Below, piece by piece: positions 47,778 through 58,510 of a stretch of 64,000 nt of DNA. Made by a program: the position numbers and the translations under genes. The notes under the pieces are model-generated. The model was given only the letters and a program-made list of their open reading frames with translations. It had not been told where the DNA came from and made no database searches. The DNA is from Rhodothermus marinus DSM 4252 (GTDB lineage Bacteria > Bacteroidota > Rhodothermia > Rhodothermales > Rhodothermaceae): assembly GCF_000024845.1 (NCBI RefSeq), contig NC_013501.1, forward strand, positions 2,460,874-2,524,873, given 5' to 3'. Numbering within the stretch: the first letter of the stretch is position 1; each line of letters begins with the position of its first letter.

Positions 47778-48149
47778 ATGCTGACCGATTTCCTTCCGCT
47801 GTTTATCATGATCGTGCTGGCCGCCGGGCTGGCCTTTTCGCTGCTCAAGCTGGCCGAGATCCTGGGGCCGCACCGGCCCAATCCCATCAAGCGCATGCCC
47901 TACGAAAGCGGCATGGACCCGGTGGGATCGGCCCGCGAGCGCTACACGGTGAAGTTCTATCTGGTGGCCATGATCTTCATCGTGTTCGACGTGGAAATCG
48001 TTTTCCTGTACCCGTGGGCCGTCAGCTATCGGGATTTTCTGGAAGCCGGTGCGGGCCTGGGCGTGCTGGCGGTCGTTGTGTTTTTCCTGATCATTCTGGC
48101 CGTGGGCCTGCTCTACGACATCAAGAAAGGTGGGCTGGAGTTCGACTGA
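47778..48149 (+). CDS. nuoA: NADH-quinone oxidoreductase subunit A
   Basis: Small membrane subunit of complex I (Nqo7). 123 aa with three spans and the conserved KRMPYESGMDPVGSARERYTVKFYLVAMIFIVFDVE region (read in parts). It starts the seven-gene cluster; the last membrane span precedes the VGLLYDIKKGGLEFD tail. Confidence 0.95.
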   Translation: MLTDFLPLFIMIVLAAGLAFSLLKLAEILGPHRPNPIKRMPYESGMDPVGSARERYTVKFYLVAMIFIVFDVEIVFLYPWAVSYRDFLEAGAGLGVLAVVVFFLIILAVGLLYDIKKGGLEFD

Positions 48150-48227
48150 AGGCGCCTGCCGAAACAGCCCGTGCCCTGGCTCATTAAACCCGTCCGGACC
48201 AGGCCTTGAAACCGACCGATTTGTCCC

Positions 48228-48812
48228 ATGCTGGATCTACGTGAAGGGTTTCTGACGACGCGGCTGGACGTGCTGCTGAACTGGGCGCGTTCCAACTCGC
48301 TCATGCCCATGCCGATGGGCCTGGCCTGCTGCGCCATCGAGATGATGGCCTTTGCGGGGCCGAAGTACGACGTGGCCCGCTTCGGAAGCGAGGCCATGCG
48401 CTTTTCGCCCCGCCAGGCCGACCTGATGATCGTGGCGGGCTGGTGCTCCTACAAGATGGCCCATGCCATTCGGCGTGTGTGGGACCAGATGCCCGATCCC
48501 AAGTGGTGCATTGCCATGGGCGCCTGCGCTTCGACGGGCGGCATGCACCGCTGCTACGGCGTGGTGCAGGGCGTCGATAACTTCCTGCCGGTCGACGTCT
48601 ACATTCCGGGCTGCCCGCCCCGTCCGGAGGCCGTCCTGCACGCGTTGATGGATATTCAGGAGAAGATCCGGAACGAGTACTCGGTAGCGCTGGACTACGC
48701 GAAAGGCGAGCCGCGTCCGCCTGCCCCACCGGCGCGTCCGCACGTCCTGTCGCCGGAAGGAGACGAACCGGTGGCGCGCGAAGTGTTGCACCGGCCGCTG
48801 AAGTCGACCTGA
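48228..48812 (+). CDS. nuoB: NADH-quinone oxidoreductase subunit B
   Basis: Carries the terminal 4Fe-4S cluster N2 next to the quinone site (Nqo6). Tandem cysteines in [11 protein letters not shown], with further ligands in [10 protein letters not shown] and [10 protein letters not shown]. Length 194 aa; the C-terminus is a charged tail beyond the core domain. 78 bp after nuoA. Confidence 0.96.
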
Positions 48813-48819
48813 TGCTGCC

Positions 48820-49512
48820 ATGGCCAAAAACGAACGTCCCAAAACGCACGAAGCGCTGAAGTTCTACTTCACGCCCGTCGATCCGCCCCGTGGGGATGAG
48901 CTGAACCCCCACGCCAAGGCGACCACCTACGTGCCCGAGGTGGTGGAAGCCCTGAAGGAGCGCTTCGGCGACGTGATCGAGGAGGTGGAGCTGTACGCGG
49001 GCGAGCATACGGTGCGCGTCCGCGCCGACAAAATCGTCGAGGTATGTCGCTTTCTGAAGGAAGAACAGGGCTTCAACTACCTGGCCGACCTGGGCGGCAT
49101 CGACCGCTTCACCGACGAGGGGCGCTTTGAGGTGTTCTATAACCTGGTTTCCATCGAGCGGCGCAAGCGCATCCGCCTGAAGGTGCGCGTCGAAGAAGAC
49201 AACCCGGTGGTGCCTTCGGTGACGTCCGTCTACCGGGCGGCCAACTGGAACGAACGTGAATGCTACGACATGTTCGGCATTTGCTTCGAAGGGCACCCGG
49301 ACCTGCGGCGGATGTACATGCCGGAGGACTTCGAATACCATCCGCTCCGCAAAGAATTTCCGCTGCTGGGCATCCCGGGCTCTCTGCCCCTGCCGCCCCA
49401 GACGCCGGGGGGTCCGCTGACGCGCGACCCATTCCCACGGGCGCACGGCTACGTACCGCCGCCGGGCTTCGAGGAGCCTCCGGCCGAAGACGAGGAAGTC
49501 TCCGAGCATTGA
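48820..49512 (+). CDS. nuoC: NADH-quinone oxidoreductase subunit C
   Basis: 30-kDa subunit (Nqo5) that supports subunit D. 230 aa with the family signature ERECYDMFGICFEGHPDLRR and YHPLRKEFPL; the C-terminal Pro/Glu-rich tail is extra. Seven bases separate it from nuoB. Confidence 0.94.
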   Translation: MAKNERPKTHEALKFYFTPVDPPRGDELNPHAKATTYVPEVVEALKERFGDVIEEVELYAGEHTVRVRADKIVEVCRFLKEEQGFNYLADLGGIDRFTDEGRFEVFYNLVSIERRKRIRLKVRVEEDNPVVPSVTSVYRAANWNERECYDMFGICFEGHPDLRRMYMPEDFEYHPLRKEFPLLGIPGSLPLPPQTPGGPLTRDPFPRAHGYVPPPGFEEPPAEDEEVSEH

Positions 49513-49525
49513 GTAAGCGACGACC

Positions 49526-50851
49526 ATGAGCACGGCGCCAAGCCTTGTAGGACCCGACCGTCACGGCCTGTTCAACTTCTGGCCCCGCCACAACGAGGCC
49601 ATCTATCGCCGGCTGGAAACCAAGCACGCTTGGCTGGAAGAACGGCATCGTCCGCCGGGCGGCGACGGGGAGCCCGATCCGCTCGAACACGAGATGATCC
49701 TCAACATCGGGCCCCAGCATCCGGCCACGCACGGCGTGCTCCGGTGCATCGTCAAGCTCGACGGCGAGGTCATGGAAAAGTGCGTGCTCGACCTGGGCTA
49801 CCTGCACCGGGGCCTGGAAAAGGTGGCCGAGCACAAAACCTACCAGGAGTTCATGCCCTACACCGACCGCATGGACTACCTGTCGCCCTACTCCAACAAC
49901 GTGGCCTGGTGCCTTGCCGTCGAGAAAGTGGCCGGTATCGAGGTGCCCGAGCGGGCCCAGTGGATTCGCATGATCATGTGCGAGCTGGCCCGCATCTCCA
50001 GCCACCTGCTCTGGCTGGGCGTGGGTCTGATGGATGCCGGCGCCGTGTCGGTCTTCCTCTGGGCCTTCAAATACCGTGAGGAGATCTACAGCATCTTCGA
50101 CGAAGTGTGCGGGGCCCGCTTCACCGTCTCGCACAGCCGCATCGGCGGCGTGGCCTCGGACCTGTCGCCGACGGCCATCGCCATGATCCGCCGCTTTGTG
50201 GAAGAATTTCCCGAAGAACTGGCCGGCTGGGAAAAGATCATCAACCGCAACAAAATCTGGATCGACCGCAACGAAGGCATTGGCGTCCTGACCGCCGAGG
50301 AAGCCATCGAGCTGGGCGTTACGGGCCCCAACCTGCGTGGAAGCGGCGTCGATTACGACATTCGTCGCTTCGAGCCCTATCTGAAGTACGACGAGGTGGA
50401 CTTCAACATCCCCATTCGCACCGAAGGCGACAGCCTGGCCCGGTACTTCGTGCGGATGGAGGAAATGAAGGAAAGCGTGCGAATCATCCGCCAGTGCCTG
50501 GAGCGGTTGCCCGAAGGGCCCATCCGCAACGACAACGCCAAGCTGGCCTACCCCTCCAAGGAGGAGGTCTATTACTCCATGGAAGGCATGATTCACGACT
50601 TCCTCTATACCGACGTGGGCGTCTGCCCGCCCAAGGGCGCCCACAGCTACCACGCAATCGAGGCCCCCAAAGGCGAGCTGGGCTTCTATATCATCTCGGA
50701 TGGCACGGGCAAACCGTGGCGCGTGCGCATCAAAGCACCCAGCTTTTCGAACCTGCAGGGCCTCGAATACATGATGGAAGGCGCCATGATCGGCGACATG
50801 GTGATCCTGATCGGGACCATCGACCCGGTCATGGGCGAAGCCGACAAGTAA
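49526..50851 (+). CDS. nuoD: NADH-quinone oxidoreductase subunit D
   Basis: 49-kDa subunit (Nqo4) lining the quinone cavity. The 441 aa includes NIGPQHPATHGVLRCIVKLDGE, DLGYLHRGLEKVAE, YTDRMDYLSPYSNN and the C-terminal LIGTIDPVMGEADK (typical DPVMGE.DR). It has an N-terminal extension of about 50 residues before MILNIGPQHP. Separate from nuoC, as in Thermus. Confidence 0.96.
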   Translation: MSTAPSLVGPDRHGLFNFWPRHNEAIYRRLETKHAWLEERHRPPGGDGEPDPLEHEMILNIGPQHPATHGVLRCIVKLDGEVMEKCVLDLGYLHRGLEKVAEHKTYQEFMPYTDRMDYLSPYSNNVAWCLAVEKVAGIEVPERAQWIRMIMCELARISSHLLWLGVGLMDAGAVSVFLWAFKYREEIYSIFDEVCGARFTVSHSRIGGVASDLSPTAIAMIRRFVEEFPEELAGWEKIINRNKIWIDRNEGIGVLTAEEAIELGVTGPNLRGSGVDYDIRRFEPYLKYDEVDFNIPIRTEGDSLARYFVRMEEMKESVRIIRQCLERLPEGPIRNDNAKLAYPSKEEVYYSMEGMIHDFLYTDVGVCPPKGAHSYHAIEAPKGELGFYIISDGTGKPWRVRIKAPSFSNLQGLEYMMEGAMIGDMVILIGTIDPVMGEADK

Positions 50852-50870
50852 CGACCAACCGGAAAGCCCG

Positions 50871-51545
50871 ATGGCTGACTTTGTCAAAAAACCGGTCGTA
50901 CCGCTGCCGGAGCTGCATCCGGAGCCGCAGATTCCGGCCGACCAGCTTTTCTTCACGGAGGAAGAAAAGGCCAAGATCGCCCGCTTCAAGGAGCAGTATC
51001 TGGAGCCGGCCGGGGCCGTGATGAAAACGCTCTGGCTGGCCCAGGAAAAATTCGGCTTTCTGCCGCCGGAGGTGCTCCAGCTGGTAGCCGACGAACTGGG
51101 CATTCCCTATGCCCAGGTTTACGGCGTGGCCACCTTCTACACCCAGTACTACAAGGAAAGGAAAGGCAAGTACGTGCTGGACGTCTGCACCTGCTTTACC
51201 TGCCAGGTGTGCGGCGGCTACGACATCCTGCACTACCTCGAAGAAAAGCTGGGCATCCACAAAGGCGAGACGACGCCGGACGGCCTGTTCACGCTGCAGG
51301 AGGTGGAATGCCTGGGCGCGTGCGGCTCGGCACCGGTCTTGCAGGTATCCAACGGGCCGTACGTGCACAACCTGACGCCGGAAAAGGTCGATCAACTGCT
51401 GGAGGATCTGAAACAGGGCAAACTGCCGCCCTTCGTTTCGCTCACGCTGCCCCAGGACGAGGCGGAGCTGGGCGGCAACCGGCGCTCGGACGCCGAAGCC
51501 GTCGAGTCGTACCAGACCCCGCCGGTCGCCCACCACACGCGCTGA
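50871..51545 (+). CDS. nuoE: NADH-quinone oxidoreductase subunit E
   Basis: 24-kDa subunit (Nqo2) with the N1a 2Fe-2S cluster. The ligand motif is VCTCFTCQVCGG (C-x4-C) and ECLGACGSAP (C-x3-C). Two extra cysteines occur in the first motif. 224 aa with a C-terminal extension. Next come the Uma2 genes rather than nuoF. Confidence 0.95.
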   Translation: MADFVKKPVVPLPELHPEPQIPADQLFFTEEEKAKIARFKEQYLEPAGAVMKTLWLAQEKFGFLPPEVLQLVADELGIPYAQVYGVATFYTQYYKERKGKYVLDVCTCFTCQVCGGYDILHYLEEKLGIHKGETTPDGLFTLQEVECLGACGSAPVLQVSNGPYVHNLTPEKVDQLLEDLKQGKLPPFVSLTLPQDEAELGGNRRSDAEAVESYQTPPVAHHTR

Positions 51546-51550
51546 GCCGT

Positions 51551-52108
51551 ATGGAGGCGGTGCAGACATATCGCTGGACGCGCGAGGCCTTCGAAAAACT
51601 GGCTGAAGTCGGGCTCGTCGCCCCCGACGCCCGCCTCGAACTCATCGACGGCGAAATCCTCCAGAAAATGAGCCCGCAATCCAGCCAGCATGCCACGGCC
51701 GTCCTGCTGGTCGCCGAGGCATTGCGCTCGATCTTTACCCCACCAGTCTACACGATCCGCGTGCAGTTGCCGCTGGCGCTGGGTCCCTACAGCGAGCCTG
51801 AGCCCGACGTGGCCGTCGTCGAGGGTGCGCCGCGCCAGTATCGCGACGAACACCCCTCGTCGGCGGTGCTGGTGGTGGAGGTGGCCGATGCCTCACTGCA
51901 GTTCGACCGCACGCGCAAGGCCGCGCTCTACGCCCGCGCCGGCATCCCCGAATACTGGATCGTCAATCTGCTCGACGGCGTGCTCGAAGTCTACCGTCGG
52001 CCCGAAAACGACACCTACCAGCAACGCATGGTGCTACGCACCCAGGACCATGTGCGACCGCTGGCCCGACCGGAGGTGGAAATCGCGGTGGCCGAACTGT
52101 TGCCCTGA
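51551..52108 (+). CDS. Uma2-family PD-(D/E)XK nuclease-like protein, copy 1
   Basis: 185 aa, 5 bp after nuoE. The Uma2 core has RLELIDGEILQKMSPQS, EPEPDVAVVEG, VLVVEVADASLQFDRTRKAALYARAGI and YWIVNLLDG (read in parts), with the D, E-x-E/V and Lys positions of the nuclease fold. Uma2 proteins are common in cyanobacteria and thermophiles in many copies; function is unproven. About 60 nt at the 5' end are nearly identical in all three copies. Confidence 0.9.
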   Translation: MEAVQTYRWTREAFEKLAEVGLVAPDARLELIDGEILQKMSPQSSQHATAVLLVAEALRSIFTPPVYTIRVQLPLALGPYSEPEPDVAVVEGAPRQYRDEHPSSAVLVVEVADASLQFDRTRKAALYARAGIPEYWIVNLLDGVLEVYRRPENDTYQQRMVLRTQDHVRPLARPEVEIAVAELLP

Positions 52109-52110
52109 CG

Positions 52111-52671
52111 ATGATGGAGGCGGTGCAGACATATCGCTGGACGCGTGAGGCCTTCGAAAAACTGGCCGAAGTCGGGCTCATTGAACCCGACGCCCGCCTC
52201 GAACTCGTCGACGGCGAAATCCTCCAGAAAATGAGCCCGCAATCGAGTCGCCACGCTGCGGCCATCCGCCGGATTGAAGAAACGCTTCGGAGCGTTTTTC
52301 CGCTGGATCGATACGACGTGCGCGTGCAGTTGCCGCTGGCGCTGGGTCCCTACAGCGAGCCCGAGCCCGACGTGGCCGTCGTCGAAGGCACCCTCGACGA
52401 CTACGTCGAGGCGCATCCTTCGACGGCGGTGCTGGTGGTGGAGGTGGCCGATGCCTCGCTGCAGTTCGACCGCACGCGCAAGGCCGCGCTCTACGCCCGC
52501 GCCGGCATCCCCGACTACTGGATCGTCAACCTCCTCGACGGCGTGCTCGAAGTCCATCGCCAGCCCGAAGGCGATACCTACCGGGAACGTCTGGTGCTGC
52601 CGTCTCAGGAGCGGGTGCGGCCGCTGGCCCGGCCGGAGGTGGAAATTGCGGTAGCCGAACTGTTGCCCTGA
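52111..52671 (+). CDS. Uma2-family PD-(D/E)XK nuclease-like protein, copy 2
   Basis: 186 aa (alternative ATG at 52114), 2 bp after copy 1. Same core motifs. Differs from copy 1 in the middle (SRHAAAIRRIEETLR, then FPLDRYDVRVQLPLALGPY) but shares the C-terminal RPLARPEVEIAVAELLP with it, while the middle matches copy 3. Confidence 0.9.
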   Translation: MMEAVQTYRWTREAFEKLAEVGLIEPDARLELVDGEILQKMSPQSSRHAAAIRRIEETLRSVFPLDRYDVRVQLPLALGPYSEPEPDVAVVEGTLDDYVEAHPSTAVLVVEVADASLQFDRTRKAALYARAGIPDYWIVNLLDGVLEVHRQPEGDTYRERLVLPSQERVRPLARPEVEIAVAELLP

Positions 52672-52672
52672 C

Positions 52673-53242
52673 ATGGAGGCGGTGCAGACATATCGCTGGA
52701 CGCGCGAGGCCTTCGAAAAACTGGCCGAAGTCGGGCTCGTCGACCCCGACGCCCGCCTCGAACTCATCGACGGCGAAATCCTCCAGAAAATGAGCCCGCA
52801 ATCCAGCCGGCACGCCGCGGCCATTCGTCGGATCGAAGAGACGCTCCGGCGCTTCTTTCCGCTGGACCGATATGACGTGCGCGTGCAGTTGCCGCTGGCA
52901 CTGGGCCCCTACAGCGAGCCGGAGCCCGACGTGGCCGTCGTCGAAGGCACCATCGACGACTACGTCGAGGCGCATCCTTCGACGGCGGTGCTGGTGGTGG
53001 AGGTGGCCGATGCCTCGCTGCAGTTCGACCGCACGCGCAAGGCTGCGCTCTACGCCCGCGCCGGCATCCCCGACTACTGGATCGTCAACCTCCTCGACGG
53101 CGTGCTCGAAGTCTACCGTCGGCCCGAAAACGACACCTACCAGCAACGCATGGTGCTGGCCCCGCATGAACAGATTGCGCCCCTGGCGCAGCCCGGGGCT
53201 TCCCTTGAAGTTGCCCGGTTGTTTCCTGAATCTCGCGCTTAA
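52673..53242 (+). CDS. Uma2-family PD-(D/E)XK nuclease-like protein, copy 3
   Basis: 189 aa, 1 bp after copy 2. The middle resembles copy 2 and the EVYRRPENDTYQQRMVL segment resembles copy 1, with a distinct C-terminal tail (GASLEVARLFPESRA). It ends 12 bp before nuoF, so the cassette keeps operon spacing. Confidence 0.9.
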   Translation: MEAVQTYRWTREAFEKLAEVGLVDPDARLELIDGEILQKMSPQSSRHAAAIRRIEETLRRFFPLDRYDVRVQLPLALGPYSEPEPDVAVVEGTIDDYVEAHPSTAVLVVEVADASLQFDRTRKAALYARAGIPDYWIVNLLDGVLEVYRRPENDTYQQRMVLAPHEQIAPLAQPGASLEVARLFPESRA

Positions 53243-53254
53243 CCTGCTGTGCAT

Positions 53255-54586
53255 ATGGCAACGAACGGAGCCCAGAGTAAAGCCGGAGACTGGCGGAATC
53301 ACAAGCGGGTGCTGCTCCCGCCCATTCGGGATCTGCACCGGCTGGAAGTCTACGAAGCGCACGGGGGCTACCAGACCCTGCGCGAAGTGCTGACCTCCGA
53401 CCGCTGGGATCCCAAGTCGGTCATCGAAGAAGTCAAAAAGAGCAAGCTGCGCGGACGGGGCGGCGCCGGCTTCCCCACCGGGCTGAAGTGGAGCTTCATG
53501 CCCCCGGTGGACGATCGGCCCCGCTTCCTGTGCTGCAACGGCGACGAAAGCGAGCCGGGCACGTTCAAGGACCGCCAGCTCATGGAGTTCAATCCCCACC
53601 AGATTTTCGAGGGGATTCTGATCGCCTGCTACGCCATGTCGGTGCGCACGTGCTACCTGTACGTGCGCGGCGAATTTGCCCGGTGGATCGAGCACATGGA
53701 GCGGGAGCTGGAAAAGCTCTACGCGAAAGGCTACGTGGGGAAAAACATTATGGGCACGGACTTCTCGGCCGACATCGTGATCCACAAGGGAGCCGGGGCC
53801 TACATCTGCGGCGAGGAGTCCAGCCTGATGGAGTCGGTCGAGGGCAAGCGGGCCTACCCGCGCATCAAGCCGCCGTTTCCAGCCCAGCGAGGCCTGTGGG
53901 GCTACCCCACCACGATCAACAACGTGGAGACGCTGGCGAACGTCCCGCTCATTCTGCGCAACGGCGGCGAGTGGTTCGCGTCCATCGGCGCGCCCAACCA
54001 TCCCGGTCCGGTGCTCTACGGCATCTCGGGCCACGTCAACCGCCCCGGCGTCTATGAATACCCCACCGGCATGCTGATCACCGACCTGATCTACGAGGTG
54101 GCCGGAGGCATCCGCGGGGGTAAAAAGCTCAAGGCCGTCATCCCGGGCGGAAGCTCCACACCGCCCCTGCGGGCCGACATGATCGACGGCGTGACGATGG
54201 ACGCCGAGTCGCTGCGCGAGGCCGGCTCGATGATGGGCACGGCCGGCCTGCTCGTGCTCGACGAAGACACCGACATGGTCTCGTGGCTGCGACGCGTGGC
54301 GCACTTCTACGCGCACGAAAGCTGCGGCCAGTGCACGCCCTGCCGCGAGGGCACCGGCTGGCTCGAAAACATCCTCACGCGCATCGACGAGGGCGAAGGC
54401 CGCCTGCGCGACCTGGACCTGCTGCTGGACCTGTGCGACCAGATGGAAGGCCGCACGGTCTGCGCCCTGGCCGACGCCGCCGCCTGGCCCGTACGCTACA
54501 CCATCCTGCGCTTCCGCGAAGAGTTCGAGGCCAGGTGCAAGCCCAGCCTGGTCCCGACGGGCATCGATCTGACGCCAACCAGCTGA
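53255..54586 (+). CDS. nuoF: NADH-quinone oxidoreductase subunit F
   Basis: 51-kDa subunit (Nqo1), site of NADH oxidation with FMN and cluster N3. Seen: the FMN/NADH loop LRGRGGAGFPTGLKW, CNGDESEPGTFKDR, GEESSLMESVEGK, and 4Fe-4S ligands ESCGQCTPCREGT plus the downstream Cys in MEGRTVCALAD. 443 aa. The ATG at 53255 was chosen over a GTG two codons upstream. Confidence 0.96.
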   Translation: MATNGAQSKAGDWRNHKRVLLPPIRDLHRLEVYEAHGGYQTLREVLTSDRWDPKSVIEEVKKSKLRGRGGAGFPTGLKWSFMPPVDDRPRFLCCNGDESEPGTFKDRQLMEFNPHQIFEGILIACYAMSVRTCYLYVRGEFARWIEHMERELEKLYAKGYVGKNIMGTDFSADIVIHKGAGAYICGEESSLMESVEGKRAYPRIKPPFPAQRGLWGYPTTINNVETLANVPLILRNGGEWFASIGAPNHPGPVLYGISGHVNRPGVYEYPTGMLITDLIYEVAGGIRGGKKLKAVIPGGSSTPPLRADMIDGVTMDAESLREAGSMMGTAGLLVLDEDTDMVSWLRRVAHFYAHESCGQCTPCREGTGWLENILTRIDEGEGRLRDLDLLLDLCDQMEGRTVCALADAAAWPVRYTILRFREEFEARCKPSLVPTGIDLTPTS

Positions 54587-54590
54587 CTCC

Positions 54591-55025
54591 ATGCGCTACG
54601 CCTCCTACCCGCCTTCGCTGAACGACCTGCTCTTCGAGGAGACGGTGCGGGCGCTCCTGCCCGACCTCGGAGAGGCGGCCATGCGGATGCGGTTGGACGA
54701 GCTTCCCAAATTCCTGGACCCGGACTTCGTCGAGCGGCGCATGAACCAGTTGCACCGCTATCGGGCCTGGGCCATGGCGGGCATGATTTTCGGCTTTCTG
54801 GCCATCGTGCTGTTGCTGGTGGCGGCGATCTTTCGCCTTGCGCTCCCCGACTATGTGCTGTTTCCGACCTCGTTTCTGTCGCTTTCCGCTCCCTACTGGG
54901 GGTTTCGGTATGCCCGACTGGGCTATTTTCTGTACGCCTACCGGATGCTCAACCACTTTGTCTACGACCTGATCGTTTATAAAGACTACCGTCCGGCGCT
55001 CCATCAGTTGACCGACCAAACCTGA
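54591..55025 (+). CDS. Two-helix membrane protein of unknown function in the nuo cluster
   Basis: 144 aa. A helical soluble N-terminus (LFEETVRALLPDLGEAAMRM, DPDFVERRMNQLHRYRA) is followed by two membrane segments (about 58-82 and 86-104) and a C-terminal helix rich in aromatics. No known complex I subunit matches. It lies 4 bp after nuoF and 7 bp before nuoG, so it should be co-expressed with complex I. Confidence 0.8.
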   Translation: MRYASYPPSLNDLLFEETVRALLPDLGEAAMRMRLDELPKFLDPDFVERRMNQLHRYRAWAMAGMIFGFLAIVLLLVAAIFRLALPDYVLFPTSFLSLSAPYWGFRYARLGYFLYAYRMLNHFVYDLIVYKDYRPALHQLTDQT

Positions 55026-55032
55026 ACGCACC

Positions 55033-56763
55033 ATGCCCCGGATTACCATAGACGGCACGGTTTACGAATTCGAAGGGCGGCCTAAGCTGTTGCAGTTCTT
55101 CCTCGATCACGGCATCGAGCTGCCCCACTTCTGCTACCACCCGGCGCTATCGATCCCGGCCAACTGTCGCCAGTGCCTGGTGGAGGTGGGCATGCCGGTC
55201 ATCGACCGGGAGACCGGCAAACCGAAGCTCGACGAAAACGGCCAGCCCGTCATCCAGTTCATGCCCAAGCTCCAGACGAGCTGCTCGCTCGACATGGCCG
55301 ACGGGATGGTCGTCAAAACGCATCGCACCAGCGAGAAGGTGGCGCGCGCTCAGCGCGACACCCTGGAATTTCTGCTGATCAACCACCCGCTCGACTGCCC
55401 GATCTGCGATCAGGCTGGCAAATGTCCGCTCCAGATTCAGGCCTACAAGTACGGGCCTGAAGGCTCCCGCTTCGAGTTTCTCAAGGTGCACAAGCCCAAG
55501 CGGGTAAAGCTGGGCCCCCGCGTCATGCTCGACGCCGAGCGGTGCATCAACTGCACGCGCTGCGTGCGTTTCACCGATGAGATTTCCAAGAGCCACCAGC
55601 TCACCATCATCGAGCGCGGGGTCAGGAACTATCCGATCACGCCGCCCGGCGTGGAGTTCGATGATCCCTACTCCATGAACGTGATCGACCTGTGCCCGGT
55701 GGGCGCGCTGACGTCCATCGACGCCCGCTTCAAGGCGCGCCCCTGGGAGATGAGCGCCACGCCCTCGATCACGATCACCAACGCGAAGGGCTCCAACTGC
55801 TACTACTGGGTGCGCGACAACCTGATCGTCGAGATCACGGCGCGCGCCAATGCGGCCGTCAACGGCTACTGGCTGCCCGACGAAGACCGGCTCGACTACC
55901 ATCGCTTCAACGAAAACCGCCCGGACGGCCCCGAGGTGCGTCGCGACGGTCGGCTCGTGCGCGTGAGCTGGGAAGAAGCCTACGACCGGGCGGCCGAGCT
56001 GCTTGCGGGCATCGACGGCCGTCGCATCCTGTTCCTGGGCTCGGCCTACGCGACCGTCGAGGACAACTACCTGCTCAAGCGGCTGGCCGAGGCGCTGGGC
56101 GCCGACACGCCCGTTTACATTCCCCACATCGAGCCCGGCCACGGCGACGGCTGGCTCCGCACCGACGACCGCACCCCCAACGCCCAGGGTTGCCAGCGTC
56201 TGGGCATCCTGCCCGTCGACGAAGCCCTTGTGCGGAGCCGCCTCGAAAGCGGCGACATCCAGGCGGTGTACGTGCTCGAAGACGACCCGGTCGGCTCCGG
56301 GCTCTTCACGGCCGAGGCGCTGGCCGACATTCCCGTCATCCTGCATTATTACAACACGACCAACCAGACGCTGGCCGTGGCCGACGTGGCGCTCCCGGCC
56401 GCCACGGTGGTCGAGACCGTCGGGACCTACGTCAACTGCGACGGGCATGCCCAGCGCGTGCGCCCGGCCAAAGCCATCCGCACAGTCAACCGCGTGTTGA
56501 TGCAGGAAATCGGCAAAAGCCGCCTGGACCAGCACGGTACGCCTTACGACCGCTGGTACAACGAAAAGCACCAGGTGGACTGCAAGCCGAGCTGGGAAAT
56601 CCTGCCCGAGGTGGCCGAACGGCTGGGCCATCCGCTCCGCTACAAGGGGCCGAAGTACATCATGCAGGAGATCGCCGAGACGATCCCGGCTTTCGCTGGC
56701 GCCACCTACGAGGCGATGGGCCTGGAGGGCGTCCGCCTTGCCGAGATCGGCGCCGAGGTGTAG
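55033..56763 (+). CDS. nuoG: NADH-quinone oxidoreductase subunit G (short form)
   Basis: 75-kDa-type subunit (Nqo3). The 2Fe-2S ligands are HFCYHPALSIPANCRQC and QTSCSLDM. A 4Fe-4S cluster has the His-ligand form INHPLDCPICDQAGKCPLQ, and another is in RCINCTRCVRF and VIDLCPVGAL. The rest is a shortened molybdopterin-oxidoreductase-like domain. At 576 aa it is shorter than most NuoG proteins (about 750-900). A terminator follows. Confidence 0.93.
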   Translation: MPRITIDGTVYEFEGRPKLLQFFLDHGIELPHFCYHPALSIPANCRQCLVEVGMPVIDRETGKPKLDENGQPVIQFMPKLQTSCSLDMADGMVVKTHRTSEKVARAQRDTLEFLLINHPLDCPICDQAGKCPLQIQAYKYGPEGSRFEFLKVHKPKRVKLGPRVMLDAERCINCTRCVRFTDEISKSHQLTIIERGVRNYPITPPGVEFDDPYSMNVIDLCPVGALTSIDARFKARPWEMSATPSITITNAKGSNCYYWVRDNLIVEITARANAAVNGYWLPDEDRLDYHRFNENRPDGPEVRRDGRLVRVSWEEAYDRAAELLAGIDGRRILFLGSAYATVEDNYLLKRLAEALGADTPVYIPHIEPGHGDGWLRTDDRTPNAQGCQRLGILPVDEALVRSRLESGDIQAVYVLEDDPVGSGLFTAEALADIPVILHYYNTTNQTLAVADVALPAATVVETVGTYVNCDGHAQRVRPAKAIRTVNRVLMQEIGKSRLDQHGTPYDRWYNEKHQVDCKPSWEILPEVAERLGHPLRYKGPKYIMQEIAETIPAFAGATYEAMGLEGVRLAEIGAEV

Positions 56764-56789
56764 GCCAGTCCGCTCACCGAAAAAAGCAA

Positions 56790-56821
56790 CCCCGTGCGCA
56801 GGAACGCACGGGTTTTTTTTC
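56790..56821 (+). terminator. Rho-independent terminator after nuoG
   Basis: Stem CCCGTGCG / CGCACGGG (56791-56798, 56805-56812) followed by T8. Ends the complex I cluster. Confidence 0.92.
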
Positions 56822-56869
56822 ATTACATCAAGCCCATTCCGTCAAGGGGCGCAAGCACCACGGCCGCGA

Positions 56870-58456
56870 TCAGCCCGGCACCATTTCCAGCTGCAGCAGA
56901 CGTTCGTAGGCCGGAAACGTCAGGAATTCGATGAAGGAATCGGACAGCACCAGGTAGTCGAGCACCTCGGCCGCCTCGCGGTAATGGGCCGTGTCGCGCC
57001 CGCCCAGTTTCGCCAGCTCTTCTTCGCGCACCTGCGCGTACAGCTCCGGCGTGATGGGCCGGCCGTCGTCCAGACGCGCCTCGCGGTGGACCCACTGCCA
57101 GAGCTGCGCGCGGGCGATCTCGGCCGTGGCCGCGTCTTCCATCAGATTGAAGATCGCGGCCGCCCCGTTGCCCGAGAACCACTGGTTCAGATACTGCAAC
57201 GCCACGCTTACGTTGTTGCGCAGGCCGCCTTCGGTAATGCGCCCGCCCGGCACCCGGAAGTCCAGCAGATCGTCGGCCGTCACCTGCACATCCTCACGCA
57301 ACCGGTCTTTCTGGTGCGGCCGATCGCCCAGATAGCGATCGAACACCTCCTCGGCCACCGGTACCAGATCGGGATGGGCCACCCAGGTGCCGTCGAAGCC
57401 CTGTCCGGCCTCCCGCTCCTTGTCTTTGCGCACTTCGGCCAGCGCGCGTTCGTTGACCGCCGGATCGCGCCGCGAGGGAATGAAGGCGGCCATGCCGCCG
57501 ATGGCATGCGCGCCGCGCCGGTGGCAGGTTTTCACCAGCAGTTCCGTGTAGGCATACATGAACGGTACGGTCATCGTCACCTGCGCCCGGTCCGGAAAGA
57601 TGGGCGCCGTCGCATGGAATTTTTTGATACAACTGAAGATGTAATCCCAGCGCCCGGCGTTCAGTCCGGCGGCATGATCCCGCAGCTCGTAGAGAATTTC
57701 CTCCATTTCCAGCGCGGCCAGGATCGTCTCGATCAGCACGGTGGCCCGGATTGTCCCGCGCGGGATGCCCAGGTAATCCTGCGCAAAATTGAACACCTCG
57801 TTCCAGAGCCGCGCTTCCAGATGGCTTTCCAGCTTCGGCAGATAGAAATACGGTCCACTTCCCCGCTCCAGGAGTTCTCGGGCATTGTGGAAGAAGTACA
57901 GGCCAAAGTCGAACAGTGAGGCGCTGACGGGCTCGCCGTCGATCCAGACGTGCCGCTCTTCCAGATGCCACCCACGCGGCCGCACCAGCAGCGTGGCCAG
58001 CTTCTCCCCCAGCCGGTATTCCTTCCCTTCCGGCGAGGTGTACTCCAGCGTGCGGCGTACGGCGTCGATCAGGTTCTTCTGACCGCGCACCACGTTTTCC
58101 CAGGTGGGCGAGAGCGCGTCCTCGAAGTCGGCCATGAAGACCCGTGCCCCGGAGTTCAGCGCGTTGATCATCATCTTGCGATCTACCGGCCCGGTGATCT
58201 CCACACGCCGATCCTGCAGATCGTCCGGACAGGGCGCCACCTTCCAGTCGCCCTCGCGGATGTGCCGCGTGTGCGGCAGAAAATCGGGGCGTTCTCCTTC
58301 GAGCAGCCGTGCCCAGATCTCCGCGCGGCGGGCCAGCAATCCCTTACGCACCGCATTGAACTCACGGTGCAGTCCGGCCACGAAGTCCAGCGCTTCAGGA
58401 GTCAGCACCTGTTCGGCTTCGGGCAGCCGCGCGCCTCGAATCTCAATGCCTTGCAT
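56870..58456 (-). CDS. aceB: Malate synthase A
   Basis: Glyoxylate plus acetyl-CoA gives malate, second step of the glyoxylate shunt. The 528-aa protein has [68 protein letters not shown] (all read in parts), [15 protein letters not shown] and [12 protein letters not shown], the active-site blocks of the A-type enzyme. The ATG at 58456 has GGAGGG upstream. No isocitrate lyase gene lies in the window. It is divergent from an IclR regulator. Confidence 0.95.
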
Positions 58457-58510
58457 GGGTCCCTCCAGAAATGGTTGCCGGTTGCGCTGCCCCAAACTTA
58501 CAACTCCCTC

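Follow-up and report, generated by a model that had tools for sequence, protein, structure and literature searches.

Results

A small gene between nuoF and nuoG

The 64,000-nucleotide stretch of Rhodothermus marinus DSM 4252 DNA that we analysed (the window) contains an open reading frame with an ATG start (54591..55025, + strand; hereafter the ORF) that encodes a 144-residue predicted membrane-hairpin protein. Its immediate upstream neighbour is nuoF, the gene of the NADH/FMN-binding subunit (53249..54586, +; Pfam Complex1_51K at 5.2e-48 and NADH_4Fe-4S), and its immediate downstream neighbour is nuoG (55033..56763, +; Pfam Fer4_Nqo3 at 3.4e-21 and NADH-G_4Fe-4S_3). The nuoF stop is separated from the ORF start by 4 bp and the ORF end from the nuoG start by 7 bp, which confirms, with Pfam-verified neighbours, the tight embedding described in an earlier note on this DNA. 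Upstream on the same strand lie nuoE (50871..51545; Pfam 2Fe-2S_thioredx) and, in the nuoE-nuoF gap, three tandem Uma2-like genes (51566-52108, 52111-52671 and 52673-53242), the first with a Pfam Uma2 match at 9.1e-35 and the second and third assigned by visible similarity only. In several relatives this gap is the slot of a two-helix (2-TM) gene. The cluster in the window (47778-56763) runs from nuoA to nuoG only, and the remaining nuo genes of R. marinus must be located outside it. A terminator-like hairpin 3' of nuoG (56791..56812, +; 8 pairs with a T8 tail) is the clearest in the interval 53200-56900, where weaker matches to the terminator pattern also occur within the ORF (54765) and within nuoG (55077) and where no promoter-like sites were found. 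After the nuo cluster comes a malate-synthase-like gene on the reverse strand (56870-58495), assigned by eye.

A Pfam scan of the ORF gave nothing above cut-off, an NCBIfam scan no match and a PDB sequence search no credible relative; Foldseek with an AlphaFold2 model returned nothing usable, the model (pLDDT 59.9) being too poor for fold claims. The statement that the protein matches no standard subunit holds. In a search of 40 genomes the ORF was found in all 7 Rhodothermus genomes, each time with nuoF before it and nuoG after it and at 58-99% identity; in the 33 other genomes of the order the single sequence gave no more than noise-level matches (best E 0.02). Pairwise comparison of orthologues yielded dN/dS values of 0.037-0.138 in 6 of 6 cases, indicating that the protein is under selection; those of nuoF and nuoG are lower (0.024-0.041). 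The ORF is thus under purifying selection, yet faster-evolving than its two neighbours, and synteny throughout the genus together with this selection shows that it is a real gene, beyond chance.

Predicted topology

Residues 1-61 (54591..54773, +), which contain 9 K/R and 10 D/E, form a predicted cytosolic, helical N-terminal part ending in the family motif LDPDFVERRMNQLHRYRAW (profile alignment of residues 37-81, leave-group-out). Transmembrane helix 1 follows at residues 62-82 (54774..54836, +) and covers the single strong hydropathy peak (2.83, residues 63-81). A second, weaker membrane segment at residues 89-105 (54855..54905, +), with boundaries set by eye, lies inside the second of the two long helices (44-80 and 87-142) of the low-confidence AlphaFold2 model (mean pLDDT 59.9). 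A separate second hydropathy peak exceeds the threshold in just 1 of the 7 Rhodothermus orthologues, whereas the remote relatives described below have two clear hydrophobic peaks. For the ORF itself two helices are plausible, though a single helix is the safer description. Membrane segments can be oriented by the positive-inside rule. No K/R occurs in the short loop at residues 83-88, against 9 in the segment preceding the hairpin and 5 in the one following it, so that both ends of the protein are probably cytosolic, on the side of the NuoEFG arm. The protein has no cysteine, which makes an Fe-S role of its own unlikely.

Occupants of the nuoF-nuoG and nuoE-nuoF gaps

We surveyed the nuoF-nuoG gap at 99 nuoF loci, one per genome and Rhodothermus included; nuoF matches had been obtained in 101 genomes, of which G042 and G103 (a fragment) were left out. 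Both nuoF and nuoG are visible at 93 loci, where the gap holds a DUF4920-type lipoprotein (53), nothing (28), a two-helix protein (9, of which 7 are in Rhodothermus and 2 elsewhere), both (1) or another insert (2). Six of the 99 loci stop before nuoG, with the two-helix protein seen in two of them and the DUF4920-type protein in two. In other families of the order the gap is usually filled by this lipoprotein, which is recognisable by a C-x3-GCW motif (L034-L135); counting the one locus that it shares with a 2-TM gene, it is present at 54 of the 93. Pfam DUF4920 was confirmed at 3.2e-19 for one tested gap protein, and 65 of the 114 genomes searched in the order contain this family (PF16267); it matched 0 of the 7 Rhodothermus genomes and did not appear in the Pfam scan of the ORF. 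That the ORF might be a decayed DUF4920 lipoprotein was rejected, since it has neither the motif nor a PF16267 match.

The nuoE-nuoF gap was scanned by position at 40 loci (2 of 42 were without a gene) and at 4 loci of family f12. Two-helix proteins occupy it at 11 of the 40 loci, and measure ~130-170 aa in family f13 and ~220-245 aa in f4, f6 and f7. Hairpin genes are present in both gaps of one genome in G063, G066, G076 and G077. Single Uma2 genes fill the nuoE-nuoF gap at L034, L035, L042, L043 and L185.

A probable remote family of membrane hairpins

Two-helix proteins were found at the nuoF-nuoG slot in five f13 genomes (G076, G066, G063, G037 and G077). When 226 gap ORFs were searched with the Rhodothermus profile, four of these five were its best non-genus matches (E 0.0012, 0.003, 0.042 and 0.047; the fifth has E 1.4). 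The profile of the f13 proteins in turn recovers 7 of 7 Rhodothermus ORFs at E 4.5e-5 to 1.3e-3. A profile of the f4, f6 and f7 members led to further genes directly upstream of nuoF in f12, among them a tandem pair in G062, and to three genomes outside the order (f40). When the Rhodothermus-only profile was run against 394 genomes of the phylum, just three weak matches appeared outside the genus, and one of the three (G139) was rejected because by eye it resembles a TPR/SH3-type protein. Among 960 ORFs the best match of this profile was an unrelated TPR-type protein. The independence of the groups is limited in that A2 was spotted partly through its high rank with the Rhodothermus profile, A4 and A5 were collected by position after a mixed profile had flagged the nuoE-nuoF gap, and the f12 members and A6 were derived from A4.

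By eye, members have in common a pre-TM1 helix of the form 'L-x-x-x-F-(V/I)-x-x-x-L-x-x-(L/M)-x-R' and a basic stretch after TM2 that ends in 'Y-x-A-L-R-x-L' or similar. Pfam and NCBIfam scans of 15 relatives gave no consistent family. Two diverged hairpin genes stand in tandem between nuoE and nuoF in G062 (L215 4613-6183), and in G076 an apparent second hairpin copy, split over two frames, lies beside an intact one (L069 1425-1780, nuoF orientation).

Relatedness was assessed with profiles free of Rhodothermus. When whole genomes were searched with profile A7, whose 15 rows are small transmembrane-hairpin proteins from other genera and include none from Rhodothermus, the ORF came first in all 7 Rhodothermus genomes, with E values from 1.7e-4 to 2.4e-3. 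With a 25-member non-Rhodothermus profile the seven Rhodothermus ORFs scored 19.0-23.9 bits, against control maxima of 16.3 for 296 other membrane hairpins, 12.8 for 300 segment shuffles and 13.5 for the 7 reversed copies. A stricter profile, comprising the nuoE-nuoF members of f4, f6, f7 and f12 and the f40 members, all gathered by position and by their own profile, gave 11.9-15.0 bits versus control maxima of 8.2 (hairpins), 5.3 (shuffles) and 2.4 (reversed). The similarity of the Rhodothermus proteins to other members is weak and local, at residues 37-81, and the hhalign probability for the Rhodothermus branch is 10% to A4 and 68-71% to A2 and A7. Taking the controlled profile scores and the low hhalign values together, we consider it likely, with a good degree of confidence, that the Rhodothermus ORF is related to these remote hairpins. 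Such comparisons suggest that the ORF belongs, as its Rhodothermus branch, to a more widespread and undescribed membrane-hairpin family that usually adjoins complex I genes, and the label "lineage-specific" in the earlier note is too narrow.

Genomic linkage to nuoF and to mrp/apbC

Linkage was counted on the matches of the non-Rhodothermus profile A7 in the order at E<=1e-4 (n=28, of which 12 were themselves profile rows). Twenty-two of the 28 lie <=1 kb from nuoF, in the nuoE-nuoF or the nuoF-nuoG gap; five are away from nuo genes, and one (G098) is on a contig without nuoF, although a second contig of this genome starts with the tail of such a hairpin gene beside nuoF. The 16 matches that were not rows divide into 10 adjoining nuoF (G017, G036, the second copy in G062, G065, G067, G068, G077, G080, G083 and G099), the one in G098 and 5 elsewhere (G018, G034, a second match in G067 and two in G078). 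Remote homologues occur at a nuoE-nuoF or nuoF-nuoG junction in families f4, f6, f7, f12 and f13, which with f1 makes six. Synteny in relatives, for which the earlier note had proposed to search, is found both in 7 of 7 Rhodothermus genomes and, through these homologues, at the nuo junctions of five further families.

A convincing relative is present in just 3 of 98 genomes of the class to which the f40 genomes belong. In 3 of 3 it is followed directly, on the same strand, by an mrp/apbC-like Fe-S carrier gene (relatives at L211 1981-2421, L212 5821-6204 and L213 5537-5905), the Mrp identification being made by eye from the SGKGGVGKST loop. The nuoF gene is represented only by contig-edge fragments in two of these three genomes and has no match in the third. 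A protein 49-51% identical to the 366-aa f40 Mrp-type protein exists in 7 of 7 Rhodothermus genomes; that the Rhodothermus mrp gene might itself adjoin an ORF relative was rejected, as none was present there in the two genomes read. Ind1 is an Nbp35/ApbC-like protein that serves Fe-S assembly of complex I in mitochondria (PMC7980591). The mrp/apbC neighbourhood of the f40 relatives suggests a possible link to Fe-S cluster delivery.

Discussion

Our results lead us to propose tentatively, at a little under an even chance, that the ORF encodes a membrane-anchored assembly or docking factor for the NADH-oxidising NuoEFG module. In the architecture predicted for the family, the N-terminal part would be cytosolic and helical and include a conserved helix immediately ahead of TM1; the two membrane helices would follow, and a basic/aromatic C-terminal helix would lie back on the cytosolic side. 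The protein would be made together with NuoF and NuoG through the tight gene spacing and would stay in the membrane, where its cytosolic helices could hold or receive the NuoEFG module, with its NADH, FMN and Fe-S sites, for as long as the module matures and docks on the membrane arm. Having no cysteine, the protein would act in assembly or docking and not as a redox subunit, and its patchy distribution and faster evolution suit an auxiliary role more than that of a core subunit. Against an aid to assembly, nuoF and nuoG occur without a hairpin gene in many members of the order: 28 of 99 nuoF-nuoG junctions are empty and most of the non-empty ones hold the DUF4920 lipoprotein instead. Also against it are the 5 of 28 family matches located away from nuo genes, the weak, local similarity of the Rhodothermus branch, the scarcity of relatives in the class of the f40 genomes (3 of 98) and the lack of a relative beside mrp in the two Rhodothermus genomes read. 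A bolder and rather improbable version, suggested by gene neighbourhoods, is that the family represents an unrecognised class of membrane-anchored chaperones that receive NuoE, NuoF and NuoG and coordinate Fe-S loading via Mrp/ApbC with membrane-arm docking. If true, this would be a bacterial assembly system without known counterpart.

The main competing explanation is that the ORF is a passenger, an unrelated small membrane protein settled at the insertion-tolerant nuoE-nuoF and nuoF-nuoG junctions. The same gaps hold DUF4920 lipoproteins, Uma2 genes, other ORFs or nothing elsewhere, some members of the family sit in other parts of the genome, and one G076 copy appears split over two frames. 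However, random passengers would not be expected to recur beside nuoF (22 of 28) in six families and in either of two gaps, with some genomes carrying the gene in both, and we regard this explanation as unlikely, if one to be taken seriously. The hairpin could also be a stoichiometric supernumerary subunit that stays bound in finished complex I, for example where the peripheral arm meets the membrane arm. It would draw on the same linkage as an assembly factor (7 of 7 synteny, 22 of 28 near nuoF) and on the 4 and 7 bp gaps to two structural genes, but nuoF and nuoG are present without the hairpin gene in many relatives, the ORF evolves faster than its neighbours (dN/dS 0.04-0.14 versus 0.02-0.04), unlike core subunits, and solved complex I chains, none of them from this group, include no relative; a permanent subunit therefore strikes us as distinctly unlikely. 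That the Rhodothermus ORF is an orphan resembling other hairpins merely through hydrophobic composition, as its weak, local similarity and hhalign values of 10% (A4) and 68-71% (A2, A7) might indicate, is very doubtful given that hairpin, segment-shuffle and reversed controls all score lower and that it is the best genome-wide match in 7 of 7 Rhodothermus genomes. The weights we attach to the assembly or docking factor, the passenger and the subunit are rough, and the orphan possibility cuts across them.

A family recurring at the exact NuoEFG gene junctions is a concrete candidate for an accessory or assembly role in complex I. To our knowledge, complex I of bacteria has few known assembly or accessory proteins dedicated to it when set against its mitochondrial counterpart. 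Purified menaquinone-reducing complex I has classically been obtained from Rhodothermus marinus, and Batista et al. reportedly analysed the subunit composition of this enzyme by mass spectrometry in 2010.

Neither the ORF nor its family is described in the titles and abstracts examined on complex I of Rhodothermus, accessory subunits in bacteria, the two gene gaps, DUF4920 and Mrp/NUBPL, and no paper in the literature searched names DUF4920. The organism offers a parallel of its own: according to a 2005 study by Melo et al., its second complex I operon (nqoB) reportedly contains NhaD and PCD genes. These too are non-core genes embedded in a complex I operon, but they are other genes in the other operon half and belong to known families, whereas the ORF is without a family model. 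The DUF4920 (PF16267) lipoproteins share the nuoF-nuoG slot with the ORF in related families, yet carry the C-x3-GCW motif and are not homologous to it. With the Mrp/ApbC/Ind1 (NUBPL) pathway the likeness lies in the position of the f40 relatives immediately upstream of an Mrp/ApbC-type gene; the ORF differs in that it encodes no P-loop ATPase and, in Rhodothermus, lies away from mrp. Among solved complex I structures, no accessory chain in the PDB is homologous to the ORF. The solved complexes are distant from Rhodothermus, the best NuoF match scoring 469 bits versus 1053 for self, and a new subunit is thus still compatible with them. Soluble supernumerary subunits of the peripheral arm are known from bacterial complex I, namely Nqo15 and Nqo16 in Thermus and the NDUFS4, NDUFS6 and NDUFA12 homologues in Paracoccus. 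The ORF differs from them in that its product is a predicted membrane hairpin that none of the solved chains matches in sequence, but it resembles them in being extra to the 14 core subunits and lineage-restricted, as a candidate member of complex I.
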